Position numbers and translations under genes: made by a program. The notes under the pieces were generated by a model, which saw only the letters and a list, made by a program, of their open reading frames with translations, made no database searches and was not told the origin of the DNA. 64,000 nucleotides of DNA from Endocalyx cinctus (taxonomy: Eukaryota; Ascomycota; Sordariomycetes; Amphisphaeriales; Apiosporaceae): assembly GCA_001600455.1 (NCBI GenBank), contig BCKC01000001.1:2196441-2260440 (forward strand), given 5' to 3'. This document shows positions 25,031 to 61,300 of the stretch, one piece after another (position 1 is the first letter of the stretch; the number at the start of each line of letters is the position of its first letter).

Positions 25031-28000
25031 TCAGAATGTAGGTGCCACCTTCTCCTGCGCCGCCAACCCCCTAAGCCTAAACGCGCGCAGTGAAGTAGTG
25101 CTCTGACTCGAGGCGTGACCTTTTCTAGGCCCTGGAGCGCTGGAAGGACTTACACTGCTACTAGTGGACGAAACGGAAACTTCAGACGTGGAAGACAGTG
25201 TCCTGAATAGCTGCTGTCTTCGGGGAGAACCTAGCGAAGAAGGCGTACCGGGACTGCGTAGTGGGCTACCACTTCCTGGATGATAAGTAGTATTCGTAGA
25301 AGATGGCCGACGCGTATGGAGATGCAACTGGCTCGTCAGCGCGATGATCGTATCGGCTGGTCTTTTCCCGTCATCGTTCGTGGAACTGGGCGATAGAGAT
25401 GGGAAGAAACTACCGACGTCGCTACCCCCTCCTCTACTTCCCGTTGCGATCGAGTGGTGGTAATGCGGGGAGAGCGGCGAAGGGGAATAGAGATGCGTTT
25501 GATTATTATAACTATTGTTGTACAACGAGCAAGCGGACAACAGAGAGGGAGATGGAGACGTAGAGGAGGGGGGACGACGATGTTGCTGCTGTACCTGACG
25601 TATTTTGCTCAGCAACGCCTCCGTCGACCTTACCGAGGTGGGACTCGCTACCGTCGCGAGGATTGGTGGCGGCGCGCGAGAAGACGCACGGGACGACGTC
25701 CTGCTTAAAGGTCGTCGCGACGACGGCGGAGCCGACATCAGTAGCGTGCCGGGAGTCCGCACGCTGGTCACCCAAGGCGCCGGTTCCGCGGAACCTGTGC
25801 CGCCGGTACTTCTCATCTGCCTCTCCAGCTCCTCGAAGCTGTACGTACCGAACATTCCTCCGTCGTCGTCAGGCGATAACCCGGGCAGCTTGCTCAGTCG
25901 ACGGATCGCCTTGTTGTTCCTCTCCACGAACGTGCTCATCGCTTTCAGAGCCCCGACGTTCTCTCGCGTGGCTACGGCGCTGGCAACTTCGGTGCTGTGG
26001 CCGCGTGCTCGGTGAACCGCGTTGAGGGTGATGGGTTCTTCATTTTTTCCCTTTGCTTCTTCACGTCGCGTCTGTTGGTTCGGCTTCGGCTGGTGGTGGT
26101 CACGATCGCTGTTGTGGTAGTAGAGCCCGCTGGTGGTAGCCCGGGCCGCGGCGGATCCGAGAGTGTCTCGAATCTGGGACATCACCTCGTCGAACCCGAT
26201 CTTCTGGTTTGGGTTGGCGGGGGATATATAGTGTTCTAGGGGAGCCTCAGAAGCAAAATCGAGCGGATCGACGTCGTTAGCCAGGACGAAGAGAGTACCG
26301 TCACGAACGCAGCGACGCACGAGCGCCCATCGGGTCCGCGCCGGGTTCCGCTCGATCTCGGGGTTATAGACGGAGCACTGCGAAAGCTGGGCGTAGAAAA
26401 CGCTCAGCCGGTTGGCCATGCGCTCGAGGATCTGCAGCAGGAAGGTCGACAGCGCCGCGATCCTGTCCGTCTCGGCGTCCACATCGTCGTCGTCGTCCTC
26501 TTCTTCATTCGCCGACGAAGACGCGGCCGCCGCGTTCACGGTATCGAACGCGTCCATACCGCGGCACGCCTCCTGCCTCAAATCTTCGAGGAGCTCGATA
26601 TCGAGCTCGACGCTGCGCGCCGCGTACGCGAAGACGCCCCTCTCCTGAAACCTCAGGGAGCCTTCCGGGTCGCAGACGAACTGGCCCACGTGTGCGACCT
26701 CCCTAGTGCAGGCGACGGCGTTGGGGCCGGACTTGGCGCGGGCCACGGCGCCGAGGACGTCGGGAAACAACTGGACGTCGCCACCGCCGCCGGGTCCGAA
26801 CCCGCCGGCGCTCGCGAGGGCGAACGTTAGCTTGAGCACGAGCTCCTGCAGCTTGGGCCCGAAAAGCGCGGCGAACCCCCCTTGCAGGAGCCGGCTCTGG
26901 TACATGTAGAAGGTGCGCGCCGCCATGGTGTTGGGCAGGGACTCCCGCAGCCAGATGTTGACGCTGCCGGCCGGGTCGAAGTCAGACGACGTCTCCCGCG
27001 AGGCTCCCATGATCTCGTACATCTCGAACTGGTGCGCTACGAGGGTCTCGACTGTCGAGCGGAGGTAGGCGGCCCAGAGATCGTAGAGGGAGGAGATCTC
27101 GCTTTCTCCCGATTCGTTTCCGAAGCGGTGGTGATGATGATGGTAGTCGGGCTTGGATAGGATATGGCCGACGAAATATTTCGTCAGCAGACTCGCCACT
27201 TCCGGATTATTCGTGTGGGCGAGGTTGTCGAAGGACTTAGAGCAGTCGACGCCGGCGTTAGACTTGATGATCAGAGTGCCTCCCGGGTGCATAGGGCAGA
27301 AGTCAGTGACGTCGTAGACGCTGCCGTGCACGCCGATCCACATCCTCGATCCCGGGCGATGGCCGGTATGGAGGGCAAGCTGCGATAACGAGATAGTAGG
27401 AAGGTTGCAGGGCAACGGCTTCGGCGTCATGAAGACGTCGAGCATGAACCTCCTCTCCGCAAATGCCTTGTTGACGACTGAGTCCACGTTGTCCATCGTC
27501 GCCGTGCAGTGCGCATAGACGGCCTTGCGAATCCCTTTCATGACCGAATCGAAGACGGAGACAGATCCGCACACGTATAAATAACCGCCTAGGCCGCCCT
27601 GCTTCTTGGACATAACCATGTCTGACACCGTCGCACCCTGCTCCGCGATCAGGGCGTCGATGTATCGCGGAGTGATCTGCCTCTCTACCAGGTCCCGCGC
27701 GTAAGGATCGTACGCGAGCGCACGCGAATCCCGCGAGAAGGCGACGTGCACTTCCATGAACCCGGTCCTCACGTGCTCCCTCAATTCCTCTTCGAAACAG
27801 AACTTTTCTCGCGACTGCACCCCGAGGTAGAGTAGGTTCCTGCCGCCCGAAGTCGATCCACCTGACGCTAGCAGTCGAGACTGCCAGAAGCTGCGAAACG
27901 GGGCGATGCCGCTGCCCCCCGCGAAGTAGGCGCAGGGAACCATGGGATCTATGGGTACTTGGAAGGCGGCCGGGCGAGACACACCTACTAGGATGTCGTC

Positions 28001-30768
28001 CTCGGGTCCGGCCATCGTGTTGTTGCTTTCGTAGTCGTCATATTCCGACGAGAAAGGTCGCGGGTTTAGGAAACCGCTCGAGACGCCCCCCCGCGTTATC
28101 TCGTCCTGCTTGGAAAATGTGGCGCAAAGCTTATATTCGGCTCTAGAGACAGCGAGATCAACAGTGGAAGGAAGTAACTCCCCTGTATAGCTTGCGATGG
28201 AATAGGTGCGTGGGACTTCTAGTGGCACGAGGTCCGCTAGCCATGAAACGTCTTCTAAGTCGAAAGCCTTGTCCCATATCCGCGGAGGCGTATCGAGAAG
28301 GGCTCCTTGAAGCAGATCTCCCAAAGTTCCACGCACAGGCCATTCGTCCGTCGCTAAGACCTGGAGGATGGTATTAGAAGAAGCGTGGAGCAGAGCGTGG
28401 ATCTTGAGTGCGAGCTCCTTAGTAATTGGTGCCAGATGACCCCGGCGGAGGATATCGGCTACGGTAATTCGCTTTTTAACCGTCGTTCTCCTGACCGATG
28501 CGAGATGATTCTCGAAACGAGACCAAGTCCCTGTTACCTGGATAGGCTCGTTGATGTATGTCTCAAGACCGAGAGCGGCCGCTACTTTTGCGCATTCTTC
28601 CCAGCTGTTCAGGGGCATTATGGCCAGCCTATCACCCGGCATGAAGGTTATCCCCGTATTCTGGATATCGAGGGTGACCAAGGCGATGGAACGATCTGGA
28701 TCAGCGTCAACCGATGATCGGCTCAGGACACGAGAAACATAACGACATTCTTCGAACGTTCCGCGCATCTGGTGTGGTTCTATATCGGAAAGATTGCCAC
28801 GATATGGTTCGAGGCGTTCCTTCATGGCCTCGGAGAACTGCTTGTGAGTTTCTTCCCAAGGTCTTGATGCATCCGATGCGCCGGAAAGGCCATTCGTCTC
28901 GGTCCTACCAGTTTTAGCCGCCACTTCGAGGATACCGAAGACCTTATATCTGTGGACTCCCATAAAGCCGCGCTCGCCTGTATACGCCTCCACGATGCCG
29001 TCCAAGACGCCCATGAGCCGTCTATCCCCCGACTGCTCGACGAATTCGGGAACGCGGTAGTGGTATTCAATAGCGGCGATGAAAGCGCGGAGGTTGGAAG
29101 GTAACCAGGCGCGTAGGTGGACACCCTCGTTCCCCAAGAACGAATTGTATTTCTTCCGGCCCAGAAAAGCATCCATTATCAGGTAAGGGGGGAACTGCAG
29201 CCCAGAGGAGGCCGGACATCGCTTAGACAGGGGCGTGCTGAAGTGGCCCCATCGAACCCATTGCTGACCAGGCACGTAATTCTCCCCCGAATTCGGGTTC
29301 GTCGATATCGAGTGGAAGGCGTTCGGCATGCGCTCAAGGATCTCCTTGAGTCGGATCATTTCTCGGAGTAGCCCCTCAACGTTCCTGTTCATCACATGCT
29401 CTTGGCAGGCTGCTATTGCGTCTGGACCGTACTGGAAGGATGCTATTTTTATCATGTCACGTAAGTGGTAGTCTGATTACTGAGTCTATAGGTATGATAG
29501 TGGAAGAAAACATACCTGAAGTGTCTGCACAGCCCTTGAGAAACGTCACTTCTGCTCTCTCGGCAAACATGGGCCATCTCAATTCAATATTATCAAATCG
29601 ACCAAGATAAGGGAAGGTGGACGTCATATCCTTTATCTTTAAGTTATAACTAGACTGATCAGGGAATGTGAGATGTGGTAGTGTTCGTCCCATCCGTCTA
29701 GAGATCTGATAATAAGGCAGAGCAATGCAGAGAGGGATACCCTTCAGCTCCTCTCCAAGATCGTCTCCCATCTGGCAATTCGGTCGCGTCTTCTTAGAAA
29801 CATTAGAGGTAACGCCGTCCGTTCCGTCATACCGGTCCTCGTATCTGTATATAGAGCAGAGCATGCCCAACGCCACCACGGCCGCCCAGAGCGCCCGATC
29901 CGGTATCATCTCCCTAGTTCCCTCCACCAGCGGCAACGCGGCGACCGATTCTCGCACGCGTCCTCGGGCGACGCAGCCAGGCATACGCTCGCAGAGATCG
30001 GACCAAAGCCGGCCGGGCGATCGGGCCAAGGCGCTGGGTGACTCGTCGTAATTCGGCGGGCAAAACCCGTGCTCGCTGCTGAGATAGCCGTCTACCCAGC
30101 CCGTCTTGGGCCCGATCTCCTCCGCTCTCAACATGACTTGCCTCCCGGGAGCGCCTAGCGCGACGGCCAAGATGTCGTGCTCGTTCGCGTTCATGGTGTC
30201 GAGCTCAGCTTGAGTTGTTGCCGCATCGATCTCCTTCACAGATGGGATATTGCTGTACAGAAGCTGGGTTATAGATTTCCTTTCTCTATTTAGATAAACG
30301 GGTTAGTTAGGTTCAGTTCTTTGTGCTATGAGTAGGTAAGGAGGAAAATAAAATACTACCTCATTCTGAGCCACTGTTCGGTATCAGTTCCTTCGGGAAT
30401 CTATCCACGTTAGCGATATTTTGCTGCCTTGTTTCAGATAGCCTCACGTACATCAAAAGCCGCATGGATATCACCAGGTTGGCAGTAACCAGAGAATGAG
30501 CAACCTCGGGGTCCGAGGCGACTGTTACCAACCGCTCCAGTCGGGCATCGTACCCCAACAGTCCCAGAAACTGGACATGATCTCTCAGACATCGTTGATA
30601 TTTTCTCCATGAGTTAATCTCATTAAGTTTTACTGCTCTAGCGTCGACAAAAATCTGTACATTTAAGAATAAAAGTTTTCCACGGCAAGATTCAAAAAGA
30701 ACCGCAGAGACTAGAACAAAGAAAAGGAAAATATCGCCTCTTAGAACAGAAACAATGAGCCTTGGCAT
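25031..30768 (-). CDS. Fusion protein: IDO/PrnB-like heme domain + FAD/NADPH reductase + cytochrome b5
   Basis: Proposed exons 30768-30448, 30400-30360, 30285-29516 and 29472-25031 (introns 47, 74 and 43 nt; phases 0, 2, 1), about 1857 residues. Residues ~70-600 resemble the indoleamine-2,3-dioxygenase superfamily, closest in feel to PrnB/DUF1864: IPDRALWAAVV, DAFLGRKKYNSFLGNEG, LPSNLRAFIAAIEYHYRV, and GFMGVHRYKV, whose His551 fits the proximal heme ligand. Residues ~615-1040 are a P450-reductase-type FNR module with the FAD motif RTYSIAS (799-805) and the NADPH motif AGGSGIAPFRSFW (from 895) but no flavodoxin domain. Residues ~1069-1150 are cytochrome b5, heme ligands His1106 (MHPGG) and His1130 spaced 24 apart as usual. 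Then come an unrecognised helical region (~1165-1500), a DDDDD-containing loop and a Ser-rich tail. The start is uncertain, since the first ~40 residues may hide another intron; the last acceptor could also be 30 nt further on. Confidence 0.82.
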
Positions 30769-31120: not shown

Positions 31121-32266
31121 TTATTGCTCTCCATTTGGAACAAAATAAACACTCTTCCCTGCACACCCTTCCACCGCAGCGGTTTCAATGGCTTTCTCCC
31201 AATCCTCCAGCTTGAATTTGCCTGCCACAGTCATACCGGCTCTAGAACCAATCTTTAACATGCCTCTCTCAATAAGTTTGATGAGGTCCTCAGCCTGTTG
31301 TGCCGTGTTCATAAAGGTACCCTTAATCGTGAGAGCTTTATGCACAACCTGCCCGTAAGGTATTTCGAGGTTACCGCGGATACCGCCCATCAAACTAATG
31401 CGGCCGCCTAGCCTCAAAGACGCGATACCTGCGTGGATGTGGGAGCCGTCCGCCGCATGTGGTGGCGTGATATCGAAGTAGACATCCATCAGCCCAAACT
31501 GCGACAACGCATTGGTATCTCGCTGCACGTCACCGCTGATCTTGACGGTTTCCACCCGATCGGAAATCTTCTTCAGTTCCGCGAGGGTTTCCTCGTTTCT
31601 TCCCATCGCTATGACCTTGGCGCCCATGGCGAGAGCGACATGCACCGCGGCGCTGCCGAAAGAGCCCGTAGCCGGCGCAATGACGACGGTTTCGCCGGCC
31701 TTCAGACCGATGTCGGAAAGCCCGCCGTGCGGTACCATCAGCTGGCTGAGACACCCGAGCTCTTCCAGCCGGTAACCTAATTTCCCTACCAGCACGCTTT
31801 CGTCGAGGATGTGGACGCTTTCCATCGGTGCGTTCATCAGCGTAGCCAGGCTCCCGTTTCGCCATTCGCCGGCCGTCAGCCTCCGCGTCGCGTCGGTAGA
31901 CCCTTCGTTGATGCTCCGCAGGATCTTCGTGTGGCCGCTGTGGTCATCGCGAGCGCGTACCGTCAGCTCGACGAAGACCAGCTGCCCAGGTTTGAGCTTC
32001 GTGCTGTCGGGAGGCACCGCGGCAACCCTGGCGACGCAAGTGCCACCCGGCACCAGAGGCAAGGGATATTTGTAGCCCCTCGGGTTACCGTTGGTCAGAA
32101 TTTGGTTTGCGTATTGGACGATGATGGAATAAAGGGGCTTGACGATCACGGATCCCGCAGTGGCAGAGGGGGTTGGCAGTGTTTCAACTTTAAGGGGTAA
32201 GGAAGGAGACCGAAGGAGAAGTCCGGTGTAAGTCTCCGGAAGCGAAGACGCTGTGACACTTGCCAT
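31121..32266 (-). CDS. Medium-chain dehydrogenase/reductase (zinc-free alcohol dehydrogenase/quinone-reductase type)
   Basis: Intronless, 381 residues. The N-terminal GroES-like half contains LVPGGTCVARVAAVPPDSTKLKPG, and the NAD(P)-binding Rossmann half reads VVIAPATGSFGSAAVHVALAMGAKVIAMGRN, followed by the VYFDITPP and LMGGIRGNLEIPYG strands. The cysteine cluster of the structural zinc lobe and the catalytic Cys/His pair of classical ADHs are not evident, so it is probably a zinc-independent NADPH-dependent enone or quinone reductase, or a related secondary-metabolism reductase. The substrate is unknown. ATG 32266 begins the domain after a short leader (MASVTASSLPETYTG). It lies immediately upstream of, and in tandem with, the heme/reductase fusion gene (352 nt apart), so co-regulation is possible but not shown. 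Confidence 0.87.
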   Translation of the reverse strand: MASVTASSLPETYTGLLLRSPSLPLKVETLPTPSATAGSVIVKPLYSIIVQYANQILTNGNPRGYKYPLPLVPGGTCVARVAAVPPDSTKLKPGQLVFVELTVRARDDHSGHTKILRSINEGSTDATRRLTAGEWRNGSLATLMNAPMESVHILDESVLVGKLGYRLEELGCLSQLMVPHGGLSDIGLKAGETVVIAPATGSFGSAAVHVALAMGAKVIAMGRNEETLAELKKISDRVETVKISGDVQRDTNALSQFGLMDVYFDITPPHAADGSHIHAGIASLRLGGRISLMGGIRGNLEIPYGQVVHKALTIKGTFMNTAQQAEDLIKLIERGMLKIGSRAGMTVAGKFKLEDWEKAIETAAVEGCAGKSVYFVPNGEQ

Positions 32267-34329
32267 CTTCCTGAGTGTATTGTAGGTATGATTTCATATA
32301 ACAATTAGTATTGTCAACAAAGTTATTGAATTATATAAGTGATAATTGATGTATTTGCCTGTTTAAATATACGGCCGTGATTCATTGATCACGGTTGCCC
32401 CCATACTTATACTCTGCCATATTGACCCTTTGAGTTCTTATAAGACAAAAACGTTATGGGAGTTAAAGATGCTTAAACCCGCATCATATTGAATTAACCT
32501 AATATTCCTCGGATATAAGATTCGGTCAATTAATGAGATTCAAAAATATCGCGGATGAGTTTATGATTGATGACATCTTTCGACGATGGTTCTCCATTTA
32601 ACGGACTTGGTAAACATATCCGATCCGAGCCGAGATGGAGCATTTGAGCTAAGATTTCTCATTGTGTGCAGGAAGTTCATAAATCGTGACGCTACGTGTG
32701 GTATCATATAAAGAGTAACAGTACTAGGATCGATGCCAGTCCTCTTGTACTTGATATGTATCATTATTGTATACAGCAGTTGTATTAGATTTTCCAAGGT
32801 TATATCTCATGATAGGTCCAGGAAGAACTTCTATATTAGTATAAATCAAAACATGCTGACTTCTGACATTCATTCGCTGTGGATTATGTAGTATAGTTTC
32901 AGGGGCTAAGGGGTACCTACCAATTAAGTGTAAGACTGTACTCCGCACTACATAAGTGCTACATAACGCCAACAATTATCTTGTAAATAGCTTTTACCAT
33001 ACATTGACCATGCCGCTTTTACTAAAGTCTAAGCTCAGCTCAGCCTAGGTTAATTTATATATACGGCATGACTTTCAGCGTTTATCGCTATTAAATTTAC
33101 CTCAAAGCATACATCTGGTATCTGGTTAATAGTTATGTCTCTCGGGTCATTCTATCCAGTAGGACGTGCATTTTTACCACTGGCATGGTGATACAGTGAC
33201 GGTTCCCTGTGATTGTACGTCGAAGTGCGCCTATCTTAACCAATAACGATGACGTTAGGGATGCGTCTTATACCAAACCACTTGAAAGATAGCCGACCGA
33301 AAATCTCGGGTCGCCTGCCTTAGATTATCTTTCAGTAGTTACGGCAATGTTCCTGCAGCAAGATTGTTGCCCCTTACAAGCTCGCCTGGCCTATGAGCGT
33401 ACCCGGAAGAGATATCTTTGGATACACAGCTAGGAGGCTCTGATCTCGTCTGATGATATGACAGGGCTAAGAGGCAACTGTAGCCTGTCCTGCCAGATAT
33501 GCCGCTGCGCGTTAGAAGATTTACACATCTGGCTTACTGACACCAGCCTATTCCGAAGTCAGAATACGGTCAATGGGGTGCCGAACCATGATGAATCCAG
33601 CTTTAACAGTCTGATTGTCCACTTAGCCATCTGTTAGTATAGCTACGGAATAGCCTTTTTCTCGGAGGCGGTACAAGACTTCGATGCTTCTTAGTGTCGC
33701 CCTACGGTTGTCTCGATACGCTGCCTGATATATCACTTGTATGCATATTAGGTAGATATCTGCAAAGGGTGCTTAGAATGGAGCTCGACATGAAATTATA
33801 CTTCAACCTACTTTCTAGTAACTTGATACATATCTGTAGTAATGGCCCTTACCCGCTAGGATTACGCGCCGTAAGCATGTGCGATACTCCCTTACATAGT
33901 GATATAAAGCAATCCAGATGAATACCTGATATTATCGCCAAGTCGAGTGATGCATCCCTGTAGGTCAACAGGTTAACTGCATGACAAGATCCTTCTAGAT
34001 TATATCAGTAATGCATAGTCCAAACTAACCGCCCCCTCCGCTTCGTATATTTGTCTACGATAGTTATAAGTAAATATGAGCGACTAACCTGAGTCCTCTA
34101 TCTTTTCTCTTTGATCTTGTATGCTCACTTCCGCTCACCTTATACTTTCTCAATGAACATCTACTAATCGGTTGGTATTTATCTTTATTGCCATCTCTCT
34201 CCAAAAGACCTGTTTTATTTTTTTTTCTTGAATTATAAAGTACATTGAACCATCGCAAGCCAATACTTCATACTCTAATCCATCATTATACTAAACTTAT
34301 ACTGCATCTTTCCTATTGGCGCTACTAAA
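32267..34329. other. Long intergenic region
   Basis: About 2 kb, AT-rich, between the divergent MDR and NTF2-like genes. Only short random frames; no transposon ends, tRNA or conserved motif was recognised on either strand. Confidence 0.5.
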
Positions 34330-36604: not shown

Positions 36605-39600
36605 ATGGCTCCTAGTGCCAGTTATAAAGAGTTCTTTCCCAACGCACCTCGCGCCGCTCGAGATAAAGCTAATGAACGTGAACGAGAGAGATCCAACAAG
36701 ATTTCAGAACCTGCCGATAATAATAACAATATCAATAATAATAATCATACTTCGAAGACTGCCTCTCCTGCTCGCCGAGATGCGGTGAAGCACGATTCGT
36801 CGTCGTCGTCATCTGATGCCGCGCATCTTCCTATTGATGATACCGAGTTTTCACAAGGGGATATTCTTAACGGTATTGGCTCCGCCAGCTCACACGCGAG
36901 TACATCCTCCTCGTCTGTATTTAGCGCTTCCAACCCGCAAGCCGCTATGAGTTCCCTATCGCGAGCTCAGAATAACGACCTCACCCCTCTCACCAATGCT
37001 GCTTCACCTTCATCTACTACTGCTACTACTCCCCATATGCATTCCGCCAAGCCACAGAATGCCGCCTCCATAAATACAAGAAAACCTGAGAACACGAGTT
37101 CCGCCACGGTCTCGAAATCCTTGTCCACATATCCTATATCTACTGACCGCCCCCCGGCTCGAGACCCAAACCTCATGAAGGAGGACCAAAAATGTATACA
37201 TGATCCCTCCACCGACAAGACTTTGTCATCGACCGAAAGGAAAACGATGAAGGCCCAATATCAAGTTCTCGGCTCGGTACGTATACTGCAATATTATAAT
37301 ATCCGGCGGGAGATGGGGGGACGTCATCTGATTGTATGTGAAATAAATGGCTAATATAATTTTTGTGATTAGAGAAATGATGACGTCCCCCCATCCGACC
37401 CGCGACTGTCCAAAGGCAGTTGGCTCGACTACATCAATGTCGACTTCCATCTACCCAAGGCCAGATTACGGCAGACTCCTTATAATCTTAAGCCGTACCC
37501 GTATGATCCTGTAACCTCTGTCGGTCCGGGCCCCCCGACCCAGATTGTCGTCAGCGGTTTTAATCCACTGATCACGTTCTCCAAAGTCGTAACTATATTT
37601 CAATCTTTTGGTGAAATCGCGGAGAGTAGTAATAAGATGCACCCTGATACGGGGAGCTATCTGGGCTTCGCAACCTTTCGTTTTCGGGATTCAAGGCAAA
37701 TGCGCCGCCCTCCAATCTCAGCTATCGAGGCTGCAAAGAAGGCCGTAAGAGCCATGAATGGACGTAAGATCGAACTTAATCACATCAAAGTTGAGTTTGA
37801 CCGTGATGGTAAAAAGAGTAGGTTGATGCTTGAGACTATCCTCAAGAGAGACCGAGAAGAATTGGCCCGTGCTACCGCTGCTGCTGCCGCCGCTATTGCT
37901 ACCCCCGTCGCCACACCGTCTGTGCCTACAGGACCCAGATCACAAGCTGATAGCACAGCTGCCGCCGTCGGCTCGAGATCGCAAACTGAAAGTGTGAACG
38001 GATTTTCAAGACCCCCTCCTACCGCCCCTAAAGGACCGGCTGCAGATCGATCACGACCGGCGGTGGGCAACACGAGTTGGACACTCGCAGTCAAACCCAA
38101 ATCCTTCCCCGCTACGCCCAGCACCGGGCCACCCTCCCTTGCGAATACTCTTCGCGATAAGCCGTACATCTATGTTGCCGATACTAGTGTCCCCGTCATG
38201 GCTACGACCGTCCCGCACATGAAAAAGCGGCTGAAGTCTTTCCTTTTCGACGACATATGTACCGATCGTACAGGATATTATATCATCTTTTCGAGCAACT
38301 CGCAAGGTCGCGACGAAGCATATAGGTGTTTTAGGTCTGCAGATGGCAGCAAATTCTTCACCTACACCATGATCATGGAACTGCATGGTTTCTCGACCTC
38401 CTCTTCTCAGCCCGGCGCCTCCTTACGACAGAACGAGTCGGAGCGACAGCCTACCCTCGATACGCGTTATAAAGAAGAACACCAGTACCGCCCCCGTGAC
38501 GAACAGCGTCGTGATCGCGAGGTGGTTCTAGAAGAGGAGAAAAAGCAAAGAGCGAAGAACTTTGATCCTGTACTGGAAGCTATTGAGATGGTCCGCCGCG
38601 AGATGAAAGAACATTTAATTCGACATATCAGAACAAAAGTAGCCGTTCCAACTCTATTCACCTTTTTAGACCCTGCCAAACATGCTGCCAAGAGACGGAA
38701 ACTTAACATTGGAGACCCGTTAGGCGCGTCGCGGCCATTGATTAGTGTGGAGGATAGGGACGTCACGCCTATTAGCACCCCCAATTCTCGAGCAGATCCA
38801 ATTGAGCGTCGAACAGGACGTCTAGATGTGGCAGCGCTCCCTCGTATTAGAAAGGTTAAGGGTCAAGGTGCGGCTCAACGAAATTACGGTTTTACGGATC
38901 CCTTTGCGCGTAAGCGGCCTACCGTGCGCCGAAATGCCTTTCGTGGTCTTCACCATCGTCTTCAACCCCCAGATAGCGACGACGAAGCATCCGAGGACGA
39001 GACCGAAAATCGCGATTCTCTTGCACGCGACACGGAAGAGCCAGAATCAAGACCTCGAAGTCGCATGAGTACGGACGAGGATGGTTTCGAAGATACGTTC
39101 CCTGACGAGGACTCCTTGACGGAATCGAGCTTCGTCGTCAACGACGGTCCCATCAGATCGAAGAAGAGGAAGCTTGATCTTCACGTCGAGGCTGCTATCA
39201 AGCGGCAGAAGAAATCGGACGAGGAACTTTTCGGTGTTACTATCGATACGCTCGAGAACGAATTCCCCAGCCCCACCGAACAAACAATTCTGCCAAATGG
39301 CGATACGGTTAATGAGAAAGACGAAGAATCTGCTCTCACGCCATCCGACAAACCCGTCAAAGGCAAAAAGAAGACCGCGCCCGTCAAGCCAAAGAAGAAG
39401 ACCAAAAAGCAGGTGTTTGAAGAGCGCGAAGCGGCCAAAAAACAACTGCAGGAAGCGGCTGTCGAAGAAAACGTGGAACAACCTAGCAAAGAGGAGACGG
39501 TCGAACCTCAGGAGCCTGTGCCTAAGCTTGCTGTCATTGAAGAACCTGTGCAGCCTAGAGATGAACGCTTCTCGGACATGGTGGTTCCAGCAATGTGCTT

Positions 39601-40637
39601 GCCAAAGGACTTCCGATTAACAGTTGAAGCTGTGCCGGATCTTCAGTTACAAACTAGAGACAAACCTGACATGAACAAGTTGAAGAAGGAGTTTCCTGTT
39701 GGTGACATTGGAGATCCTAAATTATGGACTTGGAAACAGAACCGTATCCGGGAGCTCAATGCTGAGAGCGGCTCCCTCACCGCTCCTCTGACGATCGAAG
39801 GCTATTATGTGCCAAACCCCACGGGATGTGCTAGAACAGAGGGCGTCAAAAAGATTTTGAACTCCGAAAAGTCCAAATACCTACCGCATCACCTCAAGGT
39901 ACAGAAAGCGAGGGAAGAACGACAGAAGAGGGCGGCCAAGAAAGATAGCAAGGATGCTGTGGCTTCCGCCGCCGAGGCTGCTCGTCTCGCTGCTGAGAAG
40001 CTATTAGCGAAAGGCAATTCGAGAGCAAACCGTGTCAATAATCGTCGCTTTGTTGCCGATTTGAACGATCAGAAAAAGACATTAGGCCAGGACTCGGATG
40101 TCCTAAGATTCAATCAGCTTAAGAAGCGAAAGAAGCCTGTCAAATTTGCTCGTTCCGCTATACATAACTGGGGCTTATATGCTATGGAAAACATCAACAA
40201 GGATGACATGATCATTGAGTACGTCGGCGAGCAGGTTCGGCAATCTATTTCAGAAATCCGAGAAAACCGCTATCTCAAGAGCGGAATAGGTAGCAGTTAC
40301 CTATTCCGAATTGACGATAACACCGTCATCGATGCGACGAAGAAAGGAGGAATTGCGCGGTTCATCAACCATAGTTGTATGCCTAACTGTACCGCCAAGA
40401 TCATCAAGGTCGAGGGAAGCAAGAGAATTGTCATCTACGCTCTACGTGACATTGCTCAGAGTAAGTGCCGAATCCTCTTTGCCCTATGTTTATTATAGAG
40501 TTCCTATACTAATTTTATAACTTCACCCTACAGATGAGGAATTGACATACGACTACAAGTTTGAGCGAGAAATCGGCAGCTTGGATCGTATACCCTGCCT
40601 TTGTGGCACGGCAGCCTGTAAAGGGTTCCTCAATTAG
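36605..40637 (+). CDS. set1: Histone H3 lysine-4 methyltransferase Set1 (COMPASS catalytic subunit)
   Basis: Three exons: 36605-37276, 37373-40460 and 40534-40637 (introns 96 and 73 nt; phases 0 and 1), 1287 residues. A low-complexity Asn/Ser-rich N-terminus is followed by [14 protein letters not shown] and an RRM (about 279-370, with [16 protein letters not shown] and [14 protein letters not shown]). A second RRM-like Set1-associated region lies around [18 protein letters not shown], then an acidic/basic linker. The N-SET domain (about 960-1110) includes [14 protein letters not shown]. The SET domain (about 1147-1263) has [20 protein letters not shown], the S-adenosylmethionine/catalytic [11 protein letters not shown] and ELTYDYKFE; the post-SET zinc motif is [13 protein letters not shown]. 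All diagnostic residues are intact. It methylates H3K4 at active genes in the nucleus. The final exon of 34 codons carries the post-SET motif, so the intron at 40461 must be spliced for activity. Start context ACCATGG is strong. Confidence 0.97.
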
Positions 40638-53743: not shown

Positions 53744-56700
53744 TCAAACCTCGACCGTGGGTATCCGGCTCAGCTCCTCGGCCTCCCTCGCGGCTTCCCG
53801 GATATCGTCCACGCGGATGCCGGAGCGGTCGCACATGGTCCTGAAGATGCCTTCCTCGGGCCCCTTCATCCAGAGGTTGAGCGGCGTGTCGAGCTCGGCG
53901 ATCCGTCCTGCGTCCATGACGCAGATCCGGTCGTACCCGACGATCGTCCGCAGGCGGTGGGCGATGCACAGGAGCGTCTTGCCCCGGAACCCGTGCATGA
54001 TGGTCCGCTGGATCTTGTCGTCCGTCTCCATGTCGACCGACGAGGTCGCCTCGTCGCACACGATGATCTGGGACCCTCGCACGAGCGCCCGGGCCAGCGC
54101 CATCAGCTGCCGCTGCCCCAAGCTGAAGTTCAACCCGTCTTCCTCCACCACGCTGTCGAGGTGCGTGCGTGATGCCGACGACCCATCTCGCTTGTCTTTA
54201 TCCTTGTCGTCGTCCGGCCCCGCGGTATCGGAGACGAGATCTGCCTGTCGGAGCGCAGACCAAAGTTCTAGGTCCGTGTGTTCATTGAACGGGTCTAAGT
54301 TACTGCGTACTGTGCCACGGAAGAGCGTCGGGTCTTGCGGAATGATGGCTAGCCGGGATCGCAGGTCATGCAGGCCAATGGTAGAGGTGTCTATGCCGTC
54401 GATAACTATGTGGCCGCCGGATATCTCAACGAGCCGGAATAGCGTAGACATAATGGAGCTCTTTCCGGCGCCTGTGCGACCGACGATACCTATCCTCTCG
54501 CCGGGCTTGACGTGCATAGTCAAGCCCTGGAGTACGAGAGGTAAGTTCGCGCGGTAGCGCATCTGAACGTTGTCGAAAATAATCTCTCCCTTCTCGGGCC
54601 ACGAGGGACGAACTTCAATCGTATGTTCCGGTGCCTCTTCCTCAAGTTGGTTTCCGTAATACAGCAGACGTTCCACCGCATTCATGCCGTTCTCCACCTC
54701 GGCTAGCTGCCGCACACTGAATTGCAATATTTGGACAATCGAGAGGATGTAGGACAAGACAAGACCACCGATCGACGGTGATACGCTGAATCGAGATGTT
54801 ACGACGAGGATTCCTGTCGTGAACACTAACGATATTCCGACCAAGTCTAACCGTAGCGACAGCCATCTCTGGTTGGAGAAGGTCAGGTAATACGCCGCGT
54901 CCATCTCGTCAATGGCCTTTCGAAGATCGGCAACGAAGCGGTCCCGGAGTCCGTACGCACGGATACATGCTACGCCGGTGAGACCCTCGCTGAATTTGGC
55001 GAAGACAACAGATCGCAGGACTGATTCAAAGCGTTTTACTTCACGCGCCGAAGCTCGGTAGTATGAAGCGGCCAAGACGAAAATTATACTCAAAGGTACT
55101 AGTGCGATGGCAAAGTAATGGAAGAATGCGATAATCAGCGCGAAGACCGACAATATTGTTGCTACCGTAAAGAAGTACAACCTTAAAGCGTCAGTAAGAT
55201 TGTTATCCATTACGTCCACGTCTCTCGAGAAACGGTTGGTAATACGTCCCAGAGGGGTGGTATCGAAGAAAGACATCGGGGCACGAAGAGTCCTAGACAC
55301 AGCCTGTCGTAGTAGCTTCTTACTGGCGTTTGTTCCGAATATGGTCAGCATTAGCGAGAAGCCAAACAGGAGCAAAGCCTGCAATGTTCCGAGACCGGCG
55401 TATATGCCGATATAAACCTGGTTAGAGTAGCCGAATTTATCTGAAGTCCAATAGGACAGCCACAGACTGGTTGCAATATTGGCGCCTTGGGACAATATTA
55501 AGACGATTATCACAATGGGCGCGTTGAGGATGGACCCGGATGCTCGAACATAGGAGGCATAGACCGACCACGGCACACTCGCCACCGCGCGCTCTTCAGC
55601 CTGCATGAGGCCCGGTGCCTTCTTCTTTTTCTTCGATTTGTCCTTCTCCAATTCAACTGTTTTGCTTTCCACGGCTGCACTTGTCTCACCCTTTTCTTCC
55701 TCAACCGCTGTTGTCTCCATAAGTTGCCTAAATCCTTCGTGGTTTGCCATGAGGTTATCAAAGGTGTCGATTGCCTGAATCTTTCCACCATCCATCCATA
55801 TTATGCGATCGCAACGGTTCAGCACCCAGAGCTGGTGGGTCGCGAGAATCCGGCACTTGTCCTTCATAAGTCCAAGGATAGCATTGTCCATGATATGCCG
55901 GCCGACGTGAGCATCGACAGCGCTCAGCGGGTCGTCCATAAGAATAATATCGGCGTTGAAGTATATGGCACGCGCGATGTTGAGTCGTTGTTTCTGTCCA
56001 CCAGATACGGTGATACCTCTTTCGCCTATTTCGGTCGCGTCGCCGTTGGGCAGCATATCCAGATCCGGTTGCAGGGCGCAACTATTCTCAATGTTAGCGG
56101 CCGATCATTCATTTTAGGAGTGCAGAAATAAATCACTTACGCTCTGATGACCTCTTTATACCATTTGCTGTCCATCTCCTTACCAAAAAGGACGTTATCC
56201 CGAACCGTGGCATTTTGAATCCAGGAATACTGTGGACAGAACGCTCGGGAGGCGCCCAGGACGATGTCTCCAGACGTCTTGCGCATATCACCAGCGAGGG
56301 CAGCAAGCAAAGAGCTCTTGCCGCTACCCACACTACCGATAACGGCGATTAGTTCATTGCGACCAATTTCAAAGTTAAGATCATTGAGCTTAAAAGGCTC
56401 ACGCTCTTCGACAAGAGTACTAGCCGAATCATCAGAGCTATCTTCCGGTTTGCTAGCGGTTTTTTCCGACTTGGCGGATGATTTCTTAGCCTTGGAGCCC
56501 GCGGTGTCACCCTTTTTACCCACGTTCATAGAAGCAACCTTGTCGGGATCTTGGGTAGGCGTTCTCTCCCAAGTGAAATTAGCGTTGATCATTTCCACGG
56601 CGTTCTCTCCCTCCGGCTTGAACACCGCTTCGTCGGGCTGTTCTTCAGCCAGCATGAAATCTTGTATACGTTTGAGGGAGGACCACGCGTCAACAGTGCT

Positions 56701-58383
56701 ACCGATGACGAGGGGAAGCAGGTTTAGCGGCAGGCGGAGGCCGTTGAACAGGGCAAGCGACGAGAAGACGCTCGCGGGTGAAAGGCCGTGGTCGGTGAGA
56801 GAGTACGTGACGAAAGAAAGCAGCGACGCATAGATGGGAAGCGATAAGCTCACGGCGTTGATGGCGTTTCGAATGGCCAACAAGACCTGGATGGAGTGAA
56901 TTTCGCGTTTTCGAATCTCCTTCAGGCGATCCTGGAAGGCGGATTCCCAGCCAAAGTACTTGACAAACCGAACCGACTGTAGAATTTCTTGGGTCAAGCT
57001 AACACGTTGGTCGGTGACCTTGTTAATGGCACTTCGACGCCTGAAGAGGCTGCGGATGGCTCTGGTCAAAGCCGGGATACCAATAACCAAGAGACCGAAT
57101 CCAGCGAGGGCACTGTACGTCAAGTTTATGAGGAGGAGGACTAGGGTGATGAGACAGACGATGGGGGCGGTCCAGACCATATGGAACAAGGCCGAGGCTT
57201 GATCGATTCGGTAGGTGTCCACACTCATTAAGTTCATAATCCGTCCGTTGCTCCATCCGGAGCCGTCGCCCACGATACCCACTTTATCATTTTTAGCATC
57301 TTTCTGCGATTTCTTGGACTCCTTGGATTTATTTTTCTCCTCTTTCTGGGTCGCCGCGCCGGCTGGATTTCCCGAATCTGTGCGCTCCTTACCGCCGGCC
57401 CTCGCGCGGCCGGAGAGGACCAGAGACTTCTCAAATATGAAACTGATGAGGATGGCGCGCATCTGTCCACCGATCAACATGCCGCGATAGATGAAATGAG
57501 TAATACCCAAGCTCTGCAATATCTGCATGGCGCTGATACCAAAAACTAAGCCTAGGCCGGGACCGATGGGCGGTACCGGCTCACCTTTCTGCATAGCATC
57601 CCACGCGCTTTGGGCAAAGGCTATAAGGTAACGTAGAGTAAAAGGCGAAATGACTTGGAATATGGAGGAGGCGAGTTGGCACAGGCCGCCGATCCAGAAT
57701 TCCCAGAAGAAGGTCTCATGCATCGCCCATAGGAGAGGGTACTTATCACCGTTGGCTACGCGCCTTTCGAAAGACTCCCGGCACTTTTGTGTCATTACGT
57801 CGGCTGACCGCTTTGGATTTACGGTCCAGATATCATTCTGCTCGAGGGTTCTTTTGTATCCAACCTTTAATTTTATCACCGTGGTCAGTATGTGAAGGGG
57901 AAAAAAACATGATATCATCTCGGTGATATATGATATAGCCGTGGGAGAAAGGGGGATACTCACGGTCATAAAAGGGGTCATCCACGAGAATGTAAGTAAG
58001 CTGAAGAAACCGGCGCTAGCTTCCCTAGACACGATCCTCTCTTTCGGGATGGGTGGAACACCACCCCAGCGCAACGGGTTCAATGACCTGTACCATGATT
58101 TCTTTTCAGGTTCGGCATTAGATGTCCTTGTTGTGGTAGGTGCGATACTAGTCTCGCTGATGTAGCTCTGCGTTCGATTCAACTCATCTCGTTCATCTCG
58201 CCTGTCGTCTTGTTCCTCCTTCCGACGAAGCTTCTCTTCTTCGGATTCGTCATCTTCAGAAGGCGTGACGGGAGTTACAAGTTCCGACTCGGTATTATTA
58301 TTTTTGTTATTGTTATTATCATTATTAGTCTGAGTTAGGAGATCTGCCGGTCTCTTCTCGTCGTCGGCATTTTCGCTTGCCAT
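53744..58383 (-). CDS. yor1: Yor1-like ABC transporter (ABCC/MRP subfamily)
   Basis: Three exons: 58383-57964, 57864-56141 and 56081-53744 (introns 99 and 59 nt), 1493 residues. Two transmembrane halves alternate with two nucleotide-binding domains: TMD1 starts after LTFSWMTPFMT/VGYKRTLEQNDIW. NBD1 has Walker A GSVGSGKSS (about 649), signature VSGGQKQR and Walker B ILMDDPLSAVD. NBD2 has Walker A GRTGAGKSS (about 1249), signature FSLGQRQL and IVCDEATSSVD. The Asp in place of catalytic Glu in NBD1 is the usual degenerate ABCC site. A charged insertion (GGKERTDSG... KSKESKKSQKD) between the early helices is a Yor1 trait. Yor1 exports organic anions such as oligomycin at the plasma membrane and affects phospholipid flip. 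The first intron has a length divisible by three and no stop, so an unspliced frame remains open; homology to VGYKR places the splice. Confidence 0.94.
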
Positions 58384-61300
58384 GGTTTGACAAGATTTCT
58401 TTGCCTTTAGATATTTCTTCCTCGCCTCTGTCTTCAGACCTTTCTCGGCGACAGCTGACTTTCTTTTTTTTTTCGCTATCGACTAATTGACTTTCTAACT
58501 GCCCACCGAAAGAAAATGAAGAAATCAAGTATGGGAATGTTTACCCTTCAGGCACTTCCAATTTGCGTATAGGTCGGAAAATCGGAGTTAAGACTACCGT
58601 TACTATTACAGCCGGGCCAAGAGGTATAGTGAAAAACGGCAGGTCTAATTTTTAACGGGATGATCAATCCGATCTTCGGTTCAACGATATCGGTCAATCT
58701 GAGATAGCATTTAAGTAAGGGGGGGAAAGGTTAAAAGTAGACCCTTATGGAAGATTAAATTGTTGAGTATAAAATAAAAATTATTGATTAAAGAAGAAGA
58801 AACAAGAAACTTTGAAGAAAATAAAAAGAAGTGATCGGAAAGATATTAGGTTCGTTGAAACTGCCAAATAAGTTTATTTAACTTATTTAACTTCCCATCT
58901 GAGTATGATGCCTAGATCAAAATCGATTAACCTAGTTCATCGGAACCCGCCAACGTTATACAACAAACGTTTGTATATTATACATATGCAACGAGACTTT
59001 GAATCGGGTGGTCGGGTGGTCGGAGAAGGTGATGATAGGTATAATAGGTACCCGCTATCTCAAATCGGCAAGTGATTTCAAGGGTATATATGATACGTCC
59101 CCAGATCGACCTTTGTATTTTATACTCCAAGCTTCTATATTTCGTATTTTTATTTTATTTTATACATGTGTTGGGAATATATTATATAATGTCGTACGGG
59201 GTATACATACCGGATTTGCATAACTTTACAACGATACGGTATATTATAAATACCAAATCTGATGGCCCCTCTGTTTCCAAGGAAGAAACCAGATAAAACC
59301 CGTGGAGAGCAAAGAGATGATTATCAATACACTCACTAACCAATATACAAGTACATTATGCTACATATACAATTACTAAAAGGATTTTTACAAGGTACAT
59401 GGTATAAAATGAGGAACTCGGACATTGAGTCGACCGAGCGCCTCATTCATCCACCTCAACGTAGTTAGTATAGTTCTCCTTTTGTTCGGATTTGACTTTG
59501 CGTATTTACTGATTGGAATTCGCCGATTAGATTATCAAGCAAGTCCTGAGGAAAAAAAAAGTAGCAAATAAAATGTCGGTCAGACGTATGTAATGTATAC
59601 CTATTCCGAAGGTGGAGAGAGGGAGCTAGAATGCGTGTTCTAGGTTGATTATGCTTGCAGATAGGCAACCCCGTCTAGGCAACATTACGACGACAAATTG
59701 TACCATAATATTCCGTACATAATTCTTTTTTGTCCAGCTAACTACTTATTCCGTACCTAGGTATTTTATAACCGACAAGAAGAAACAAAAAAAAGTTAAG
59801 TTAAGTTGTTGCGTATTATATTCTCCGAGTACGTTGAAGGAAACAAGCTACGTTACCTAAAGTGATGACTTAGAAGAAGGATGATGACGATGATATATAC
59901 CTAGGTAGTACTATACTGAGCCTTTTGCTTTTATAGTATTAAACACCATGGTCTATACAATATACTAATATGACCTGTATGGGTGAATAAGAAAAGTGAT
60001 TACAACATCCAAGTTTCTTATTGCATCTTACTTATACTCCGTACGTAGAGATCTTTGAAGATGCCGTAAGAAACTTCTAAAGATCATCCGATCTGACTTC
60101 AACTTCTACTGTCTAGACAGTAACCCATGCCAACTCGATATACATTATTAATACAAAATCACCACTATACTCTGTACACTACGGTGAGTACACTAGTCAC
60201 GCGGAAGTCCTACCCGCTTTATACGAAAGCGAATAATAGGCATCCCGAACACTACGTACAACGAGCCTAGGCAAGTTAAGCTTTTATGTCCTTTTTTCCC
60301 CCTTCTTCTTTTCTCCGCTGGGAAAAAAAGAGTTATTGGCCTAGGCTGCCTAGGGGTGCCTTGCCCAACTAAATATGCGCTTGGCGTACAGGCTGACAGG
60401 ATAGGGGAATATTCAAGAAAAAAACAAAAGAATTAATAATAACGATAATAATCTCACGAAAAAGACACCCCTAAAATGTAATATTATGTAAACTACGGAG
60501 TACACCTTTTTTCTTATTCTTGTGGAAATCTCCGATCCCTTGACCATTCATTACCTCCTTCTTAACTCCTTTCCCGCATTTTAAGACGAGTTATATTACG
60601 AAGCCCCCCCGATGACCCGGCGGGTTAAGCTGGTATCCCGTCTTTGATAACTTCAAAAAAAAAAAAAAAAGGGGGTACAGCGAATCGGAGAGGACCGCCC
60701 GACTGTCCCTGTACGCTCGAAGAAAAAAAAGAAAGAAAATCAAAAACATGGCTCGGAAGCGAACACAAAGATTCGGTACCGGACGCGGTGAATAACGGGA
60801 ATGCGCCGTTTCAAGTCTTACAGAGATGTACAATAATATGATAATATAAATTTTGACCTTATTCTTTATTTTATTTTGGATTTTTTTTTTTTTTNTTTTT
60901 ACTCATACTTACTCACATACGTATTAGTTTACGTGGGCTAGGAAGTTTTAATACATAGTACATCTACTTCTTTTCTCCACGCAAAACGAATCTCCGGTCC
61001 GGCCGAGGTGAAGGATGTGATATTTCCGAGAGCAACCCCCCTTAAAAACATGCATGATAGCAAATGAGAGAGAAAAAAAAAACATTACATACCCAACTTA
61101 TCTATCTATGCTTATCTTCCGAGACCGGGTATGCATGCTAGTTGGCTAGTTAGACGAAAAGAGAAATGATACAGGTCATGTCCGGTCCCGGGTCGTCGAG
61201 CCCGCGGACGAACGAGCCTGCTACCATTTGTTTGAACCGCCCCGGAGATGAACATGATGAAATCAGTTTCAGGAGGAGGCATTTTCTTTCTTTCTTTTTA

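Follow-up and report, generated by a model that had tools for sequence, protein, structure and literature searches.

What does a fungus do with a protein that joins a heme domain related to indoleamine 2,3-dioxygenase (IDO) to its own reductase and cytochrome b5? The question is raised by a 64,000-nucleotide stretch of Endocalyx cinctus DNA (contig BCKC01000001.1, positions 2,196,441 to 2,260,440; here called the window, whose numbering is used throughout). A gene on its minus strand encodes, in order, an IDO-fold heme domain, an FAD/NADPH module, and a cytochrome b5, and thus joins two known kinds of protein, the IDO fold and the self-sufficient heme oxygenase. We consider it reasonably probable, from the sequence features described below, that the fusion is a self-sufficient oxygenase of IDO fold that acts on a substrate other than tryptophan. 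Sequence comparison places it in a family of fungal proteins, probably ancient, whose architecture has changed little across a chytrid, mushrooms, and moulds.

Gene structure and copy number

An earlier note, made from the letters of this DNA alone, had proposed that a long frame plus upstream exons, spanning 25031..30768, encodes a single polypeptide. The list of open reading frames contains this frame (29476-25031, 1481 codons), preceded by short upstream exons. Guided by homologues, we modeled the gene as four exons, with GT...AG ends on each of the three intervening introns (51, 74, and 73 nt; Table 1). The stop end of the proposed span stands, and the start moves to 30592, 176 nt inside 30768. 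The start codon and the last acceptor were picked to fit the homologue consensus, and both rest on homology. A longer version of 1,803 residues was rejected: its last acceptor adds 10 residues absent from homologues, and its start lies six codons too far upstream. Pfam searches of the full protein used this version (6 residues more at the start, 10 more at the last acceptor).

Table 1. Features of the fusion gene and its product (window positions)
Feature	Position	Strand	Residues and remarks
Whole gene	25031..30592	-	1787 residues, four exons; stop 25031-25033
Exons	30592-30452, 30400-30360, 30285-29516, 29442-25031	-	homologue-guided model
Exon 1, N-terminal extension	30452..30592	-	MSERSCPVSG...CPTG...GPRGC, two Cys-Pro dipeptides
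IDO-fold heme domain	28760..30245	-	about 75-545, spans third intron
H481, candidate proximal heme histidine	28952..28954	-	HRYK; His in 197/197 rows
FAD/NADPH module	27425..28759	-	546-990
FAD/NADPH module motifs			RTYSIAS 729, AGGSGIAPFR 825, SR 887-888, CG 942-943, D986, F988
Cytochrome b5 domain	27155..27397	-	1000-1080, axial H1036, H1060
Conserved C-terminal helical domain	26255..27112	-	1095-1380
Poorly conserved tail	25034..26254	-	1381-1787; 19-25% identity in six distant members
RRLS	25892..25903	-	1498-1501, inside otherwise poorly conserved tail

The possibility that the locus is an artefact, either two adjacent genes or a chance open frame, is hardly credible. A single open frame runs without a break from the IDO domain's second half through the reductase and b5 to the tail, and a homology search returned 274 proteins, among the best 120 of which, as listed, 116 are single gene models with all four Pfam domains. 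The four-domain architecture is therefore not due to chance, and single models in many species bear out the claim of one polypeptide. A search begun from a distant member found 266 homologues, again with the best 120 listed. For residue-level comparison, 256 proteins were returned; the 196 of 1300-1999 residues entered an alignment of 197 rows, and 60 shorter or longer ones were excluded.

The fusion gene is single-copy: in the genome searched (44.8 Mb, 15 contigs), no second copy was found, and all matches were the window's own exons. Three stand-alone IDO genes lie elsewhere in the same genome. One is divergent (contig C7, about 2,028,800-2,030,050), has ATGGS in place of GTGGT, and is perhaps an IDO gamma. 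A supposed kynureninase beside a stand-alone IDO, read by eye from the frame, was not used; Pfam matches nothing in the 199-residue piece.

The heme domain

The heme domain is a member of the IDO superfamily, as the earlier note had supposed. It scores 32.7 bits against Pfam IDO (PF01231; cut-off 26) in the 1803-residue version and 28.9 bits for the exon alone. Profile comparison gives the same placement, and structure comparison with the model of a homologue matches the IDO fold across about 350 residues. Searched alone as a single sequence in the Protein Data Bank (PDB), the heme domain matched weakly: IDO1 came at E 0.013, and unrelated rows followed from E 0.6. The likeness to PrnB that had also been suggested was not found, and we reject this identity: PrnB/DUF1864 (PF08933) has no Pfam match in the fusion protein at E up to 1. 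A search of the whole genome for PrnB found none, and control genomes likewise gave none.

Three histidines of the heme domain, H426, H481, and H517, are invariant in all 197 rows. H481 directly follows an EFV...RGF block that is similar to the EFV...FR..H of IDO, and it is likely the heme ligand because no other invariant histidine occurs in that part. We take it to be what the earlier note called His551; in alignments it falls five residues after the proximal histidine of IDO.

In IDO1, residues of the FY..R segment and of the GTGG loop hold L-tryptophan. We compared this pocket with that of 14 IDOs (human, three from this genome, and ten bacterial). The arginine equivalent to human R231 is kept in all 14, and the fusion family is gapped there; the whole FY..R segment (human F226, F227, and R231) has no counterpart in the family, in a region where the local alignment is uncertain. 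The GTGG(T/S) loop, which reads GTGGT in 12 and ATGGS in 1 of the 13 IDOs that reach it, is KTGRTETNG.SGA in the fusion family. The family thus has the fold of IDO but, with neither element kept, seems to have lost the IDO1 mode of holding L-tryptophan.

These replacements bear on whether the protein dioxygenates tryptophan or a different indole, with the fused reductase and b5 merely keeping the heme ferrous. The fold itself speaks for this, a TNG..GA stretch can be loosely aligned to the GTGG loop, and the retrieved sections of a review relate that the view of the cellular IDO reductant has moved from superoxide to cytochrome b5 (PMC4191572). We nevertheless regard this alternative as unlikely, since the arginine segment is absent, the loop is replaced, and the genome already has its three stand-alone IDO genes. 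That an indole-like substrate is bound as in IDO, as the earlier note had it, is thus doubtful.

Compared with IDO1, IDO2, and the fungal and basidiomycete IDOs, the fusion shares the fold and the Pfam match, and it has an invariant histidine close to where the proximal one of IDO aligns; it differs in the replaced pocket elements and in carrying its own reductase and b5. The retrieved part of the same review catalogues fungal IDO alpha, beta, and gamma and basidiomycete IDOa, IDOb, and IDOc, and that part describes none of them as a fusion (PMC4191572).

The reductase module, cytochrome b5, and proposed electron path

The reductase is of the P450-reductase/NOS (nitric-oxide synthase) type. 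In the 1803-residue version it matches Pfam FAD_binding_1 at 39.2 bits (cut-off 32.3) and NAD_binding_1 at 25 bits (cut-off 22). By sequence, its nearest PDB entry is the FAD/NADP domain of rat neuronal NOS (E 9e-14), followed by self-sufficient P450s and P450 reductases; by fold, Foldseek returns P450 BM3, P450 reductase (CPR), and NOS, and the best 50 Foldseek rows listed for a second structure model are reductases. The cysJ-type models of NCBIfam match far below their cut-offs, and four of five homologues hit reductase families only, likewise far below cut-off. Both motifs quoted in the earlier note, RTYSIAS and AGGSGIAPFR, are present, and its description of an FNR module that lacks an FMN domain is confirmed: Pfam gave no Flavodoxin_1 match at E up to 1 in the full protein or up to 10 in exon 4, where, at the same threshold, the corrected frame matches FAD_binding_1, NAD_binding_1, and Cyt-b5 alone. 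RTYS keeps its R, Y, and S, and SRD its Ser-Arg pair, in 197/197 rows; D986 and F988 are likewise present in 197/197, and C942 and G943 in 196/197. Residues of this kind in P450 reductase and NOS bind FAD and the phosphate group of NADPH and aid hydride transfer; by analogy, they would serve the same roles here.

The cytochrome b5 matches Pfam Cyt-b5 at 54.1 bits (cut-off 23.7; 1803-residue version), and its nearest PDB sequence is cytochrome b5 type B (E 3e-13). As described earlier, it has two histidines 24 residues apart; H1036 is present in 195/197 rows (two gaps) and H1060 in 197/197. A membrane anchor was rejected, the maximum 19-residue Kyte-Doolittle mean being 1.51.

Because the FMN domain is missing and both b5 histidines are kept, we infer that b5 is the natural one-electron relay and that electrons would run from NADPH to FAD, b5, and heme. 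In the mechanism we propose, NADPH would bind the FAD/NADPH module and hand hydride to FAD, and the fused b5, in place of an FMN domain, would deliver electrons one at a time to the IDO-type heme, whose most likely ligand is H481. With O2 activated there, the heme would act on a small substrate that is not L-tryptophan. Because almost all members compared retain the reductase and b5 in the same chain, it seems more likely that electrons are consumed in each turnover, as in a monooxygenase, than that they serve the rescue of ferric heme alone.

Several observations weigh against a self-sufficient oxygenase. Both profile alignments set G476, rather than H481, on the proximal histidine of IDO, with H481 placed between two gaps. 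The modeled homologue, P0124, has about 20 surplus residues adjoining the candidate histidine, and the second structure model has low confidence in its b5 part. In other proteins, a fused reductase may do no more than reductive rescue. Nor does an IDO fold prove oxygenase activity, as illustrated by the IDO-like myoglobins, which, according to the retrieved text of the review, lost tryptophan metabolism (PMC4191572). As a separate observation, the surplus stretch of P0124, a metagenome protein, lies beside HRYK at residues about 412-432 and is probably an unspliced intron.

Comparison with known fused heme proteins

In P450 BM3/CYP505 and NOS, a heme domain and a diflavin reductase share one chain. 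The fusion likewise combines a heme domain with an NADPH/FAD module of the same family; in contrast, its heme domain is IDO, it has no FMN domain, and a b5 on the C-terminal side is found instead. The same FAD/NADPH module is shared with the diflavin reductases (CPR, CysJ, and the NOS reductase), whose flavodoxin domain is not matched in the fusion. Nitrate reductase and Ncb5or join an FAD module to cytochrome b5, a one-electron relay, as do b5-b5-reductase fusions. Unlike in these proteins, the reductase of the fusion belongs to the P450-reductase/NOS family rather than to the b5-reductases, no Mo domain was matched by Pfam, and the electron acceptor would be an IDO-type heme. The b5-b5-reductase fusions exist in fungi, according to the consulted part of one paper (PMC4557397).

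Among the orthologue names listed in the database are "nitric-oxide synthase, salivary gland," "sulfite reductase," and "NADPH-ferrihemoprotein reductase"; one listed orthologue is named "putative indoleamine 2,3-dioxygenase." The first name raises the idea that the fusion substitutes for a fungal NOS. The NOS FAD/NADP domain is indeed the best PDB match of the reductase, and the fungal source of nitric oxide (NO) is described as unsettled in the retrieved part of one report (PMC10889981). This idea is nonetheless highly improbable: the likeness is confined to the reductase half, and the heme domain is IDO with a histidine rather than a cysteine as candidate ligand. With no Pfam NOS oxygenase match at E up to 1, we reject membership in the NOS family. 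In the portions consulted of two knockout studies, whose loci may or may not include an orthologue of the fusion, four Neurospora NOS-like knockouts left the NO level unchanged, with other candidates not covered (PMC4948021), and knockouts of NOL2/NOL3 in Magnaporthe reportedly failed to explain the NO (PMC4778047).

Alternatively, the protein could handle NO, or else nitrite or peroxide, in the manner of flavohemoglobin, its reductase-fed heme dioxygenating NO or reducing small N-oxides. Flavohemoglobin is a reductase-fed heme protein in one chain, of globin fold and without b5. It thus follows the same logic of a heme with an FAD/NAD(P)H module, and the wide, conserved distribution of the fusion fits a housekeeping detoxification role. 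The fusion has the IDO fold instead of the globin fold, and a b5 in addition; known IDO pockets suit organic substrates, and the altered pocket motifs give no pointer to NO. We therefore find NO handling quite unlikely.

Terminal regions

Three features go beyond the earlier note: the domain at residues 1095-1380, the N-terminal Cys-Pro motifs, and RRLS in the tail. The domain is 39-47% identical in six distant members and helical in the structure model. It matches no Pfam family, and a PDB search by sequence gave one chance-level row (E 0.95). A second IDO-like copy was considered and rejected here (hhalign probability 0.1 and 0.8). Of the 148 rows with at least 25 residues among the first 60 positions, 127 carry two or more Cys-Pro dipeptides in that stretch, and we take these to resemble heme regulatory motifs. 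RRLS is present in 186/197 rows (by column, R 188, R 195, L 195, and S 196) and is presumably a PKA-type RRxS motif, making it a possible phosphorylation site. The C-terminal domain and this candidate site probably serve assembly or regulation.

Such hints of regulation, together with the replaced substrate segment, could also mean that the IDO domain is non-catalytic and acts as a heme or ligand sensor for the reductase and C-terminal domain, the protein being a hemoprotein or b5 reductase. The heme domain, with its three invariant histidines, shows conservation no lower than that of the reductase (53-60% versus 46-57% identity in six distant members), and we judge a sensor very unlikely.

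Distribution and age of the family

Among the matches listed, ascomycetes comprise Sordariomycetes, Dothideomycetes, Leotiomycetes, Eurotiomycetes, a Pezizomycetes, and Geoglossum; Basidiomycota account for 11 rows (Serendipita, Rhizoctonia, Ceratobasidium, Moniliophthora, Marasmius, and Mycena), and the chytrid Gaertneriomyces also appears. Class assignments are those we take to go with the listed names, with lineages looked up for three. A quick tree was built, without a mixture model, from 59 rows (58 of the 196 homologues, hand-picked for taxonomic spread, plus the window protein) and rooted by choice on the chytrid. The protein in this set most identical to the window protein is one from Xylariaceae (83% over 872 columns). 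Basidiomycota (7) and Ascomycota (51) are both starred groups, and two groups lie inside Pezizomycotina, with three Dothideomycetes genera present in both, a pattern as after duplication. The fusion probably arose before Ascomycota and Basidiomycota separated, perhaps even before their lineage parted from chytrids; horizontal transfer may lie behind part of its distribution. Two peptide patterns, a weak test, were used to look in bacteria and archaea for relatives of the fused heme domain and gave 37 matches, none confirmed by tblastn.

Genomic neighborhood

A zinc-type alcohol dehydrogenase frame (31124-32293) lies immediately upstream of the fusion gene on the same strand. On the other side, a run of frames at 9437-24294 matches P450, MFS transporter, family-2 peroxidase, lipoxygenase, and PAF-acetylhydrolase, possibly an oxylipin-type neighborhood. 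A secondary-metabolite cluster was set aside as a reading; the P450, peroxidase, lipoxygenase, and alcohol dehydrogenase neighbors were seen in this genome alone. Farther away are a frame with N-SET, SET_assoc, and SET domains, a Set1/COMPASS-type methyltransferase (37373-40495), and two ABC transporter-domain frames on the minus strand that are probably one gene (53747-58482).

Implications

Searches of the open PMC literature yielded no study of an IDO-reductase-b5 fusion (subscription papers, including the Yuasa and Ball studies of fungal IDO, were outside this scope), and the family is apparently uncharacterised. More tentatively than for the self-sufficient oxygenase itself, we suggest a kingdom-wide, ancient class of self-sufficient heme oxygenase, equivalent in fungi to P450 BM3 or NOS but with an IDO scaffold, in which b5 takes the place of FMN, the substrate is endogenous and not tryptophan, RRLS is a phosphorylation switch, and the product is a conserved fungal metabolite or signal. 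Names such as NOS and sulfite reductase hide the family and could misdirect searches for a fungal NO synthase. An IDO-fold enzyme with its own reductase and b5 would allow the electron path to be tested directly in one purified protein, and might find use as a self-sufficient oxygenase in biocatalysis. Because it is conserved from chytrid to mushrooms and moulds, the family marks a part of fungal metabolism without known function.

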